Below, one piece after another: positions 4,567-48,907 of a stretch of 64,000 nucleotides of DNA (position 1 is its first letter; the number at the start of each line of letters is the position of its first letter). The position numbers and the translations under genes are program-made. Below the pieces are notes generated by a model. That model saw only the letters and a list, made by a program, of their open reading frames with translations, made no database searches and was not told the origin of the DNA. Location: assembly GCF_031326345.1 (NCBI RefSeq), contig NZ_CP133671.1, positions 3,844,001-3,908,000 of the forward strand, read 5' to 3'. Origin of the DNA: Aureispira sp. CCB-E. GTDB taxonomy: Bacteria > Bacteroidota > Bacteroidia > Chitinophagales > Saprospiraceae.

Positions 4567-4637
4567 GTTCTTATTAGTTAATAAACATTTTCTAATATTT
4601 GATAATGCTTAATGATAAGGAATGATTTTATAAGAGC

Positions 4638-4749
4638 AATAGTTCGTTGAAACCATGAAGTAGCACCGTAGCTAACTACTAAAGAGTAGATATTCTATTT
4701 TTAAGAATACCTACTTCTTGCAAAAAAGTGTGTTATTGAACGAACTAGT
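4638..4749. repeat. MITE-like intergenic element, copy 1 (112 bp)
   Basis: The left end AATAGTTCGTTG and right end GAACGAACTAGT are inverted repeats of each other (10 of 12 positions). Inside are the family motif GAAGTAGCACCGTAGCTAAC and a stem formed by about 10 bp around 4685-4714. The right end overlaps the last codon region of thiG and provides its TAG stop. The same ends recur at 7976-8179, 21091-21312 and 33533-33583. Confidence 0.65.
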
Positions 4750-5512
4750 CCAGAAAAGAAGTCAAAGGACTGCTTGCATTGGCATGGTTGAACGGGCTTG
4801 CCAATCGAGCCTCATAAGCCATTCTACCAGCTTCAACGCCTAGTTTAAACGCTTTGGCCATTTCAATTGGATTATCAGAAACAGCAATAGCCGTATTTAC
4901 CAAAACAGCATCTGCACCCAATTCCATAGCCTTCGCAGCATCTGAGGGGCTTCCAATGCCTGCATCTACAATAACAGGGACATTGGCTTGTTCGATGATA
5001 ATTTCTAAAAAGTCAATTGTTTTTAAACCTTTGTTGCTACCAATTGGAGAGCCTAAAGGCATGACGGCTTGTGTCCCAACTTCTTCTAGTCGTTTGCAAA
5101 GAACAGGGTCGGCGTGCACATAAGGCAATACTACAAACCCTAATTTAACCAATTCTTCTGCTGCAAGTAGTGTCTCAATCGGATCAGGCATTAAGTATTT
5201 AGGATCTGGGTGTATTTCTAACTTTAGCCAGTTTGTTTCCAAGGCCTCGCGCGCCAATTGAGCAGCAAAAACAGCTTCTTTGGCGGTTCGAGCTCCTGAA
5301 GTATTCGGCAACAGATGAATATGAGGATGATTTAGATGAGTTAAAATATCATCTTCTTCATTTTTAATGTCTACTCGCTTTAAGGCAACGGTGACCAATT
5401 CAGATTCAGATGCTAATAAAGCATCTCTCATCATTAAGCTAGAGGCAAACTTGCCAGTGCCTGTAAATAATCTAGACTGAAGCGTTTTGTCTGCGATTGT
5501 TAGTGCTTGCAT
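4745..5512 (-). CDS. thiG: Thiazole synthase ThiG
   Basis: 255 residues, the usual size for ThiG. The (beta/alpha)8 barrel enzyme forms the thiazole phosphate moiety of thiamine from 1-deoxyxylulose 5-phosphate, dehydroglycine or glycine imine, and ThiS-thiocarboxylate. Typical blocks are LFTGTGKF at the start, the VTVALKRV segment, [29 protein letters not shown] and [16 protein letters not shown]. It is isolated: no thiS, thiF, thiH, thiC or thiE is nearby, so the rest of the pathway must be elsewhere. No TPP riboswitch was recognised in the 276 bp upstream. The stop codon TAG comes from the terminal repeat of the adjacent repeat element. Confidence 0.95.
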
Positions 5513-5788
5513 AAGTTTGAATATGTTGACTCAACAACTTTTCTTGATCTAATTTGTATCCACTTAACATGAGTTGGTTAAGGAGTAATAATTCTTCAAC
5601 CTAGAAAGAGTAGTTAAGGGATGACTATTTATAAATTACAAATATCATTACTCCATTGCTTTTTATGTTTTACCCCAAGAGTTTTTTGGTTCATAGAAAA
5701 ACTAAAAAAGCAACGAAGTATTAAAATATAAGGTGGAACGGTTAATCAACCATTAAATAAGTCAAAAGTAACCATGTCAGAGTTTCTC

Positions 5789-7939: not shown

Positions 7940-7975
7940 CCTTTGTTGTGAATTTTTGAAGTAGTACTCTAAATC

Positions 7976-8179
7976 AATCATTTGTTGGAAAACTTTACTT
8001 TGTTGCAATTTAGTAAGTTGCAGTTGTGTTGCCTTTTGTGCTAATTTTTTTTGATTGCCAGGTTCGTATGGAGGTTCTTTTTTGTTTTTTTGTTAGCAAG
8101 GCTTGTCGAGTAGGCTTGTGTGAGCAGCGTAGGAGAACTATTTGTGAAGCACTATGGAGTAGTAGTACTACGAACTACT
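7976..8179. repeat. MITE-like intergenic element, copy 2 (204 bp)
   Basis: It starts AATCATTTGTTG and ends CTACGAACTACT, imperfect inverted repeats matching the family ends. The first 90 bp align with the left part of the copy at 21091 (shared TTGGAAAACTTTA, GTAAGTTGCAG and TTGCCTTTTGTG blocks). With the promoter at 7908-7939 and the hairpin at 8189-8223 it explains most of the 493-bp gap between queA and the next gene. Confidence 0.6.
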
Positions 8180-8188
8180 ATAATATAA

Positions 8189-19964: not shown

Positions 19965-19983
19965 CTTGTTTATTATTAAATAA

Positions 19984-20139
19984 TACTCTGTTGATTACCT
20001 GCGGTGCTACTTCGTGGTAGCTCCCTGCGGTCGTGAGAGCGCAAGCTTAGTTTTTAGTCTGATTATCAGCCTTTTAGTGCAAAGATTGAAAGAGGTGCAT
20101 TTTGCTGATAATCAAAATAATACAATATTTAACAGAGTA
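19984..20139. repeat. Intergenic repeat element with TACTCTGTT terminal inverted repeats
   Basis: TACTCTGTT at 19984-19992 is inverted perfectly as AACAGAGTA at 20131-20139. Inside is a second perfect 11-bp inverted pair, TGATTATCAGC (20060-20070) and GCTGATAATCA (20104-20114). The left half (GTGAGAGCGCAAGCTTAGTTTTTAG) resembles, in inverse orientation, the right part of the element at 21091-21312. It therefore seems to be a variant or composite of the same dispersed family. Confidence 0.55.
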
Positions 20140-20261
20140 ATGATTAAATTAACTGAATATTTATTTAATGAAAGTAATCTAATAAATTTATAAATCCAAA
20201 TTTTGAATTGGCAATTGCTGGCTAATTGTTACTAAAAGCAGAGCGGTTCTAGAATAAAAAC

Positions 20262-21032: not shown

Positions 21033-21090
21033 ACTTGTCTTTTATTATTTAGAGTGATGAATACAAGTTTGAGGAGTCTTTTTAAGTATC

Positions 21091-21312
21091 AATAGTTTGT
21101 TGAAAAACTTTATTAGTTTGATAGTCAGTAAGTTATGCTTTTGTTGCGTTTTGTGTTAAAATTTTAATTATCAACTGCGCAGCACTCATGCAATACCACG
21201 AAGTAGCAGCGCAGCTAAACTAATATAAATGTGCTTTTTTATCTTTTTGGTAAAAAAGTAAAAAACTAAGCTTGCGCCCTCATGAGCGTAGCGAACTAAT
21301 CAACGAACTACT
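21091..21312. repeat. MITE-like intergenic element, copy 3 (222 bp, best full-length copy)
   Basis: The ends AATAGTTTGTTG (21091) and CAACGAACTACT (to 21312) are inverted repeats (10 of 12). Internal parts are a left arm similar to the copy at 7976, the motif GAAGTAGCAGCGCAGCTAAAC (about 21200), a TATAAATGTGCTTT block also seen near 44800, and an A/T hairpin around 21233-21268. It fills the gap between the lipoprotein and pirin genes. No coding frame lies inside. Confidence 0.7.
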
Positions 21313-21609
21313 AAAGTATTGTATTGGGTGTTTTTTAGCAGAATATACAATTGTAAGGAGGTGACACAAGAATAGCTCCAAAAAGAAAAAATGGATGAGA
21401 TATAAATGTTAAAAGGAATAATAAGATAAAACTTTAACAAGAAGTTGTTGCGGAATACTTGATTCTCAATGAAAAAAACTTTTTAGCTGAATTGTTGACT
21501 GTTGCTTGAAGCAAGAAAATTGTATAATTTGGATTCCGAATGAACAGAGAAAGTACTTGCTTTGTTTAGATGTCGCATCTACTATGGTATACGATTAAAA
21601 GATAAAATT
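21313..21609. other. Intergenic leader of the pirin gene
   Basis: The remaining 297 bp after the repeat element is AT-rich. TATAATTTGG at about 21524 is close to, but not exactly, the TAnnTTTG pattern and could be the pirin promoter. Nothing else is recognised. Confidence 0.3.
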
Positions 21610-22816: not shown

Positions 22817-22909
22817 TACTCTGTTGAAATCATGTAGTAACAGCACCGCAAACTAAGCCAAGCGATCTCACGAAGTAAATCGTATTTGTATTGTTTTGAT
22901 CAATTTATT
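22817..22909. repeat. Fragment of the dispersed element family
   Basis: TACTCTGTTGAAATCATG is followed by TAGTAACAGCACCGCAAACTAAG and GCGATCTCACGAAGTAAA. The last block is shared with the copy at 44685 (GCGATCTCAAGAGGTAAA). No right end is recognised. It occupies the first part of the 331-bp gap before the LolA-like gene; the rest of that gap shows nothing notable. Confidence 0.5.
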
Positions 22910-23932: not shown

Positions 23933-24010
23933 TGGGGTGCCTGATGGGGTTCGAACCCACGACCCTCGGTACCACAAACCGATGCTCTAACCAGCTGAGC
24001 TACAGGCACC
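23933..24010 (-). tRNA. tRNA-His (GTG), copy 1
   Basis: On the minus strand the cloverleaf has acceptor GTGCCTG with CAGGCAC, D arm AGCTCAGCTGGTTAGAGC and anticodon stem TCGGT/ACCGA around loop TTGTGGT (anticodon GTG). The T arm is GTGGG TTCGAAC CCCAT. The extra G at -1 faces C73, the identity mark of tRNA-His, and CCA is encoded. It differs from copy 2 at one base in the D loop. Confidence 0.95.
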
Positions 24011-24345: not shown

Positions 24346-24423
24346 TGGGGTGCCTGATGGGGTTCGAACCCACGACCCTCGGTACCACAAACCGATGCTC
24401 TAACCAACTGAGCTACAGGCACC
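24346..24423 (-). tRNA. tRNA-His (GTG), copy 2
   Basis: The cloverleaf is the same as copy 1, with G-1:C73, anticodon GTG and encoded CCA, and it differs only in the D loop (AGTTGG in place of AGCTGG). The spacing of 413 bp between copies and the shared flanking terminator indicate a tandem duplication. Confidence 0.95.
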
Positions 24424-33485: not shown

Positions 33486-33532
33486 GTGCGTTTTAGACGT
33501 TTCATTTTATTATTTTAATCTTTTTATGTAAC

Positions 33533-33583
33533 AATAGTTTGTTGAAACTATGTTGTCAAACTAACGACAACCAACGAACTACT
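33533..33583. repeat. MITE-like intergenic element, copy 4 (51-bp minimal copy)
   Basis: It has the same ends as copy 3, AATAGTTTGTTG (33533-33544) and CAACGAACTACT (33572-33583), with only 27 bp between. It sits entirely in the 109-bp gap between the GT-C-like and GT2 genes, ending 11 bp before the GT2 ATG, so it would form a hairpin in the leader. Confidence 0.65.
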
Positions 33584-33594
33584 AATTGAACATA

Positions 33595-44625: not shown

Positions 44626-44684
44626 CATATTTATATTTATTTGCCAACTTAGCAAAAGTTTACAAAAAGGGATATTCGTCTAGT

Positions 44685-44807
44685 AATAGTTTGTTGAAAC
44701 CGCGTAATAGTAATACAATCAATTACATTGGCGATCTCAAGAGGTAAACTTTTTATTGTTTATCAATCATGCCACACTTATAAAGTTAAATAGTATAAAT
44801 GTGCTTT
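44685..44807. repeat. Truncated copy of the dispersed element family
   Basis: It begins with the canonical end AATAGTTTGTTG (44685-44696), contains GCGATCTCAAGAGGTAAA shared with the copy at 22817, and runs to GTATAAATGTGCTTT, a block also in the copy at 21091. No right end is recognised. It sits between STAS-like paralogues 2 and 3. Confidence 0.55.
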
Positions 44808-48551: not shown

Positions 48552-48907
48552 CTGTTATTTTATTATCCCCAATAATAATAGTTCGCTAAAAGAATGCAGC
48601 AATAATGAATGCAGTTTTGTCCTTTCCCAAAGTAAAAAATGAATTTTGGATTCCCTTTTTAAACTGTTCAAATGAGCTGTAGCGAATGAAAAATTAGTAA
48701 ACTATTACAATAAATATGCAGAAGAGTATTCCTTGATAAAACGTTGAGGGTGATGCAACCTTTGATTGTTTTTAGGATGCAATTCTACAACAGGTGATAG
48801 TAATATTGTATTATCATATTATCAATAAACGTAACTTTTCTTCTTGCTGTATGTCACATTTTGGCATAAATGTACTAATTAAAAAGATAAAAAAAAACAT
48901 ACGTGCA
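48552..48907. other. Intergenic region of about 356 bp
   Basis: No gene is recognised. AATAGTTCGCT at 48577 followed by GAATGCAGCAATAATGAATGC looks like a degenerate left piece of the dispersed family (to about 48613). Nothing else is distinct before the porP terminator. Confidence 0.4.

Follow-up and report, generated by a model that had tools for sequence, protein, structure and literature searches.

Members of the family in the window

The window is the whole stretch of 64,000 nucleotides that was analysed, and it covers positions 3844001–3908000 of the genome of a marine Aureispira bacterium (7.39 Mb in two contigs). The best match of a protein from the window was found in Aureispira sp. 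CCB-QB1 and was 100% identical. An intact element of 224 bp lies at 21090–21313 of the window, with AAGTAT on both sides. The preliminary description had recognised a complete copy here but had placed it at 21091–21312 (222 bp). It had seen no coding frame in the copy, and no ORF of at least 80 aa overlaps the element. The members of the family in the window are given below (A, B and C are subfamilies).

21084–21089, no strand: target site duplication AAGTAT, left
21090–21313, plus: MITE-like A-subfamily member, intact at its ends and with an exact 6-bp duplication, 146-bp chassis with modules of 22, 22 and 34 bp
21173–21194, plus: 22-bp M2-type module in reverse orientation at chassis site 83, read against the insert-site table
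21195–21216, plus: 22-bp M1 module adjoining the M2-type one and containing the core motif, boundary ambiguous by one A
21264–21297, plus: 34-bp module of type M3c, chassis site 130, with two A that leave its boundary ambiguous
21314–21319, no strand: target site duplication AAGTAT, right
4637–4681, plus: 45-bp A-subfamily member with a 5-bp duplication, AAGAG (other 45-bp members have an exact 6-bp duplication)
5646–5723, plus: 78-bp B-type member, duplication AAATAT, identical in CCB-QB1
7975–8180 (about), plus: degenerate long A-type copy without a clear duplication
19981–20142, minus: 162-bp B-type member with a composite GC-rich insert, duplication ATTAAA
24702–24847, minus: 146-bp C-type member, duplication alike in 5 of 6 bases, strand taken from inner-arm resemblance
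33532–33584, plus: 53-bp A-type member, flanks alike in 4 of 6 bases
44684–44699, plus: solitary A-type left end (truncated copy)
48576–48707, no strand: 132-bp member of another subfamily, exact duplication CAATAA, differing from CCB-QB1 by SNPs only

The members at 5646, 19981 and 24702 had been missed earlier, and several boundaries had to be corrected. What had been read as one element of 112 bp at 4638–4749 is really the 45-bp element with AAGAG on both sides. Its claimed right end, 4738–4749, enters the 3′ end of a ThiG gene (4745–5512, minus strand) and is taken as a chance match. The copies given as 33533–33583 (51 bp) and 7976–8179 (204 bp) are indeed of A type, but the former is 53 bp long and the latter is degenerate. 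The sequence near 48577 is not a part of the same element but a different member. Among the partial copies listed near 22817, 26866, 39825, 42924 and 44685, the one at 44684 consists of a left end only, and the others have partial end or module similarity only. The window also holds two tRNA-His genes (anticodon gtg) on the minus strand, at 23933–24009 and 24346–24422, 0.4 kb apart.

Abundance and distribution

The ends recur far beyond chance, as had been expected. The sequence AATAGTTYGTTGAAA had 152 exact matches in the window genome (85 forward and 67 reverse), against 1 for the reversed control. In the window, AATAGTTYGTTGAAA with up to 3 mismatches gave 21 matches against a shuffle mean of 10.25, CAACGAACTACT with up to 2 mismatches gave 20 against 4.26, and the core motif gave 3 against 0.00. 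The copies also align inside the ends, since the 222-bp copy used as a query returned 77 matching pieces when the best 40 of 534 candidates were scored. The family is abundant and has probably moved recently, with hundreds of very small mobile DNA pieces, some of them only 24 bp.

The end motif was matched in 5 of 40 genomes, namely in its own genome (152) and 1–2 times in each of four others, where some matches are due to chance. It is nearly lacking outside the species, and the diverged 146-bp forms of other species were detected by the whole-element query only. That 146-bp query found matches in 5 of 9 genus genomes, the two strains included, with the best 40 candidates per genome scored. 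Among 12 short loci taken from two of these genomes, 7 held a 146-bp element flanked by exact 6-bp duplications: 5 out of 6 in genome G001 and 2 out of 6 in genome G006. A search of a plasmid collection with the 146-bp element gave no match.

Target duplications and size classes

A census was carried out for ends [CT]ANTA[CG] combined with an exact 6-bp duplication, and the duplication sought at five shifted places served as the control. Counting orthologues in both strains, 50 candidates of 16–299 bp were obtained in 1.26 Mb of the window genome (mean control 6.4) and 55 in 1.18 Mb of CCB-QB1 (mean control 5.2). For 600–2999 bp the numbers were about those of the control (36 against 42.4 in the window genome and 42 against 38.6 in CCB-QB1). 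The sizes with a duplication include 24, 26, 28, 32, 45, 47, 53, 78, 112 and 146 bp. Among 76 strict A/B end pairs from both strains, orthologues and alternative right ends included, the exact duplication was 6 bp in 39, 7 bp in 14 and 5 bp in 3, and 20 had none of these. We count this as a duplication of constant length, mostly 6 bp, of which AAGTAT around 21090–21313 is an example; target-site duplications had been suggested as a check. The terminal inverted repeats are 14 bp long, both in the strict end pairs and in the fold of the 146-bp copies described below. Stretches that are not orthologous between the strains entered only the censuses (duplications and sizes, inserts, 146-bp copies and strict pairs), and part of one such stretch was reused for the strain comparison after remapping.

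Comparison of the two strains

Four collinear stretches of the two strains, with 828,748 ungapped bases, contained 3,996 mismatches (0.48%). In these aligned 829 kb there were 29 indels of 15–300 bp, and by reading 24 of them were put down to these repeats, as whole A/B elements (5), elements of another family with TAAGTAA-like ends (2) or module or compound differences (17). The elements, their modules and a second small family therefore make up most of the indel variation of this size in the alignment.

All five whole A/B elements (genome positions 3643427, 3647613, 3800739, 3822525 and 3831476) are present in CCB-QB1 only. At three of these places the window strain has an empty site, and CCB-QB1 has an element with an exact 6-bp duplication: 146 bp (TTACTA), 146 bp (ACATAT) and 45 bp (ATAGGA). 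A B-type element of 146 bp (AAAAAT) is likewise confined to CCB-QB1, at a place where the surroundings also differ by a few bases, and the 24-bp element at 3647613 has an imperfect duplication. Four elements with an exact duplication thus stand opposite an empty site in a close relative. The 17 module or compound differences run in both directions, the window strain having the longer sequence in 9 of them and CCB-QB1 in the other 8. One of the 9, at 3696939, is a complex 43-bp difference with an A-type end, and it may be a whole-element insertion in the window strain. That CCB-QB1 has five whole gains and the window strain no clear one is only suggestive of an insertion bias.

At the level of single elements, 34 loci were compared, leaving aside 9 window-strain elements without an exact flank match and the unmatched ones of CCB-QB1. 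Eight loci were the same, 12 differed by SNPs only, 12 had larger differences and 2 were empty; in at least two of the 34 (3575899 and 1107166) the inverted ends are poor, and these two may be due to chance. The CCB-QB1 orthologue of the element at 21090–21313 is 258 bp long owing to one extra 34-bp module. Over the 23.5-kb locus aligned here there were 114 mismatches, and this 34-bp insert was the sole indel larger than 2 bp.

Other differences between the strains were seen as well. The second small family, with TAAGTAA-like ends, has members of 184 bp (at 4532525) and 160 bp (at 1102414), both of which the window strain carries and CCB-QB1 lacks. The longer of the two apparently duplicates TA and contains an M1-like module. 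Insertion sequences with ends AGTCATCCCGAATTT lie at 3718246, 1131544 and 1411337 (1440 and 1458 bp in two of them), and CCB-QB1 has a short inverted sequence of 27–33 bp in their places. A segment of 22,420 bp at 3578822 occurs in the window strain only; the sequence at its junction resembles a tRNA gene's 3′ end, and it is perhaps an integrated element. Large replaced blocks, apparently in long coding regions, were found at 1346986, 3897277 and 3899497.

The 146-bp chassis and its modules

The common form is a chassis of exactly 146 bp. There are 28 distinct copies of this length, drawn from the two strains and genomes G001 and G006 and selected so that the ends match and no more than one of the six duplication bases differs. 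They fall into three subfamilies, CAATAGTTCGTTGA, CATTACTCCGTTGA and CATTACTTCGTGGA, and exact 146-bp copies are present in at least three species.

Longer copies carry modules, which are GC-rich and 20–36 bp long and differ between the strains in both directions. Forty-four A-type elements (both strains, orthologues counted twice) contain 67 inserts of at least 15 bp, of which 58 sit at a few chassis positions and 9 are odd or compound. The 22-bp modules follow positions 7, 15/16, 28, 83 and 138. Sites 7 and 138 are mirror places in the two inverted arms, and so are sites 28 and 83. At site 83 the insert is 44 bp, that is two modules, in 7 of 8 cases, and at site 15/16 6 of 16 inserts align as 16–21 bp. 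Inserts of 34 bp follow positions 117 and 130, and those of 36 bp follow 129. All five 22-bp sites lie no more than 2 bases from an AACT or AGTT. Six such places were counted by eye in the typed consensus, and five of the six are used. For the M1 module the window genome gave 193 exact matches and CCB-QB1 198, against 0 for the control in both. The module is present in B- and C-type elements too.

The copies overwrite each other by conversion, because orthologues of the same length differ inside and hardly in their flanks. At 1106807 and 1210211 there are 11 and 13 SNPs inside the element and 1 and 0 in 80 bp of flanks, which is the mark of replacement. Swaps with little change of length were seen at 3757279, 3832299, 1134480, 1149730 and 1360780. 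The one at 3757279 is accompanied by nearby SNPs, and at 1134480 one module is replaced by another at the same site. It is conceivable, with chances that we put slightly below even, that gene conversion between dispersed copies accounts for all of the module differences and that the modules are not mobile themselves. Moreover, short conversion tracts at the 34-bp sites would leave no trace, as the surrounding chassis hardly varies. Against so complete an explanation, the strains differ at 3646260 in a 22-bp and a 34-bp module that are separated by about 100 bp of identical chassis, and the elements at 3625318 and 3666651 differ in nothing but one 34-bp module. Also, M1 or M1-like modules occupy non-homologous chassis sites, B- and C-type elements and another family, and homologous conversion does not create such a distribution. 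Since some module differences leave the chassis unchanged, we keep both conversion and a separate process of insertion or excision in view.

In our view two things probably act together on the modules: ectopic conversion between copies, and a second, putative process of insertion or excision that prefers certain sites. A stronger version, in which the modules form a second, independent mobile class, is doubtful in our view. The process behind such a class would be site-specific, would make no target duplication, would place M1 and M2 beside AACT and remove them precisely, and would act on elements of another family too. If it were true, the modules, together with 24-bp transposing elements, would be among the smallest mobile DNAs and would need an undescribed enzyme or copying mechanism. 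The precise gain and loss of 20–36 bp modules is a question separate from the transposition of the elements.

The shortest forms

A 24-bp form with an exact 6-bp duplication was found at ten distinct sites over both strains, orthologues and reverse complements having been merged by eye. The duplications are TTTAAA, ATTAGA, ATTTAT, ATCATT, TAAAAA, AAAAAA, CTAAAA, TCAAGA, TAATAC and CTCACA. A pattern search for the 24-mer gave 44 matches in each strain. Thirty loci were inspected: 7 had the exact 6-bp duplication and 1 a 5-bp duplication, in 18 the motif lay inside a longer element, and 4 (two of them orthologous) were free-standing without a duplication of 5–6 bp.

The preliminary description had explained the variable length with constant ends by internal deletion. 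This holds for the forms of 45, 78 and 112 bp, which look like deletions, but many of the length steps are modules of 20–36 bp that are present or absent. The 45-bp form reads as if the DNA between modules at sites 15 and 138 of the chassis had been lost. The 24-bp sequence is identical to the beginning of an element that carries a module in its left end. This module puts a second end-like CTACTA within 24 bp and would, as the sequence reads, yield the 24-bp form. Internal deletions and end-like sequences in modules would thus give the forms of 45, 28 and 24 bp, which carry the same duplications.

The 24-bp forms may, on the other hand, never have been inserted as such, but have arisen by deletion within longer copies after insertion and inherited the duplication. 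The identity with the start of a module-bearing element fits this origin, and so does locus 1418862, where the window strain has the 24-bp form (ATTAGA) and CCB-QB1 has 45 bp with the same duplication. A 24-bp duplex also seems, in our own judgement, short for the synaptic complex of a DDE transposase, which counts against transposition at this size. Nevertheless, near-identical 24-mers at ten separate sites require that deletion hit the same endpoints repeatedly, and at 3647613 CCB-QB1 has a 24-mer where the window strain has no element, although the duplication of this 24-mer is imperfect. We regard deletion after insertion as less likely than not. With its 24-bp units, a candidate transposase and many differences between two strains 0.48% apart, the family offers a clear test of the minimal size of a transposable element.

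A candidate partner insertion sequence

An insertion sequence of 1365 bp was found in CCB-QB1 (contig L354, 932–2296). It has the ends CAATACTTCGTTGAAGTATTAA on both sides and a 6-bp duplication, TTATGC. It is thus an autonomous element with near-identical ends and the same duplication length; its ends equal those of the A subfamily in 13 of 14 bases, and at position 6 the A subfamily has G for C. The frame is open over 433 aa, with an ORF of 429 aa from TTG. The transposase matches DDE_Tnp_1 with 30.5 bits (cut-off 23), and its sequence YRLRFQQEFLFRDAK fits Y-(2)-R-(3)-E-(6)-K, the YREK motif of IS4. An A-type element with modules (L354, 681–904) ends 27 bp from this insertion sequence.

The transposase families sought were PF01609, PF00665 and PF01797. 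PF01609 had 42 matches in the window genome and 3, one of them the candidate partner, in CCB-QB1, which is a draft assembly where a multi-copy insertion sequence has probably been collapsed. None of the 42 in the window genome has a 433-aa open frame. The groups of 294, 269, 358, 370, 427, 458 and 468 aa were rejected as partners by their ends, with one locus viewed per group, and so were the four rve genes of the window genome. A transposase or RAYT gene with matching ends had been suggested as a check; such a gene exists as the DDE insertion sequence of CCB-QB1, but neither a partner among the PF01609 and rve genes of the window genome nor a RAYT gene was found there. A search of phages with the partner transposase gave no match.

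Two copies of an insertion sequence in Persicobacter encode a transposase 38–39% identical to the partner. They have the ends CAATACTCCGTA and duplications of 6 bp (ATTGGG) and 7 bp (TATTAAA), which agrees with the mixture of 6 and 7 bp in the miniature elements. Miniature forms with these ends and an exact 6-bp duplication did not appear in 150 kb of Persicobacter (three stretches, controls 0 to 3).

As to its classification, PMC2266710 gives IS701 the end consensus ---YACT-Y--YR with duplications of 4 bp, and the IS4 subgroups the YREK motif with duplications of 7–13 bp. The partner end CAATACTTCGTTG fits the IS701 consensus. The 6-bp duplication is neither the 4 bp of IS701 nor the about 10 bp of IS4. 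The best NCBIfam score was obtained with an IS701 model, and every matched family stayed below its curated cut-off (92.3 bits against 170 for NF049999). The insertion sequence mixes IS701 and IS4 traits and duplicates 6 bp, and is best called IS4/IS701-like.

The preliminary description had proposed a non-autonomous, MITE-like element, and this is borne out by the inverted ends, the mostly 6-bp duplications, the sites that are empty in the sister strain and the insertion sequence with near-identical ends. We prefer the MITE reading because of these ends, the same duplication length, the DDE match with the YREK motif and the filled and empty sites. The elements are very probably MITEs of an IS4/IS701-like insertion sequence, with a candidate transposase that would act in trans and a separate turnover of modules; the 1365-bp insertion sequence is likely their mobiliser, judged from sequence. 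Its DDE transposase would recognise the ends YANTAST-YCGTKGA and insert the DNA between them, mostly with a 6-bp duplication. It would act on the MITEs in trans, recently in CCB-QB1. The 146-bp structured chassis is the common form, and modules at fixed places turn over independently between close strains.

Folding of the elements

The consensus fold of the 28 copies has 36 pairs, with 988 of 1008 cells paired and 9 pairs changed on both sides; its end helix is partly by construction, as the copies had been picked for matching ends. Folded as single strands, the 146-mer (z −7.08), the end of the insertion sequence (−7.39), the 28-bp form (−3.52) and the 32-bp form (−4.73) were more stable than shuffles, the 45-mer (−1.29) and the 24-mer (0.40) had no outstanding fold, and the four modules folded were no better than shuffles (−0.16 to 0.92). 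The value of the 146-mer, and an exact length kept across species with compensatory changes, could suggest structured RNAs or regulatory hairpins kept for function rather than selfish DNA. This is improbable, since inverted DNA repeats would show the same pairing as an RNA fold, the elements are present or absent between close strains, and Rfam at the gathering threshold matched only two tRNAs in the window.

Comparison with known systems

Movement of REPs or REPINs by a RAYT (Y1) transposase, the other type that had been considered, is hardly credible: the elements are likewise small and numerous, and their AGTAGC motif brings GTAG-tagged REPs to mind (PMC3733652), but PF01797 (Y1_Tnp) had no match in the window genome while the same search was positive in 5 of 14 control genomes, the folded modules form no stable hairpin, and whole elements duplicate 6 bp of target. 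For the REP/REPIN–RAYT systems described in PMC3116915 and PMC3733652, the likeness to the MITEs is limited to being small and abundant, and the difference lies in the Y1 transposase, the hairpin and the duplications. BrickBuilt of Porphyromonas gingivalis (PMC4596501), an example of the MITEs of bacterial insertion sequences, is also short and intergenic, with small inverted-repeat ends and a repeated inner unit of about 23 bp, and belongs to Bacteroidota. However, BrickBuilt holds a tandem minisatellite, whereas different modules occupy different fixed sites here, on a constant 146-bp chassis over several species and with forms down to 24 bp that have duplications. The partner insertion sequence shares DDE_Tnp_1, the IS701 end consensus and YREK with the IS701 and IS4 groups, and differs from them in its 6-bp duplication (PMC2266710).

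No report of these elements appeared among the papers listed for small mobile repeats, Aureispira genomes and Bacteroidetes MITEs, nor among those listed for GC clusters, smallest elements and IS4 families. The GC clusters of yeast mitochondrial DNA are GC-rich optional inserts of 30–40 bp in AT-rich DNA. The modules merely resemble them, as the clusters belong to an organelle and have other sequences. The study of Elhai et al. 2008 on small dispersed repeats (SDRs) of cyanobacteria is cited in PMC3116915 and PMC2884548. These SDRs would be the nearest precedent and are reportedly units of 20–30 bp, presumed mobile, that lie inside minitransposons and each other. The 22-bp modules inside a MITE are nested in the same manner. 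The SDRs are not known to have 6-bp duplications or a candidate transposase. The present family, in contrast, belongs to another phylum, and its 24-bp form has both 6-bp duplications and a candidate transposase.
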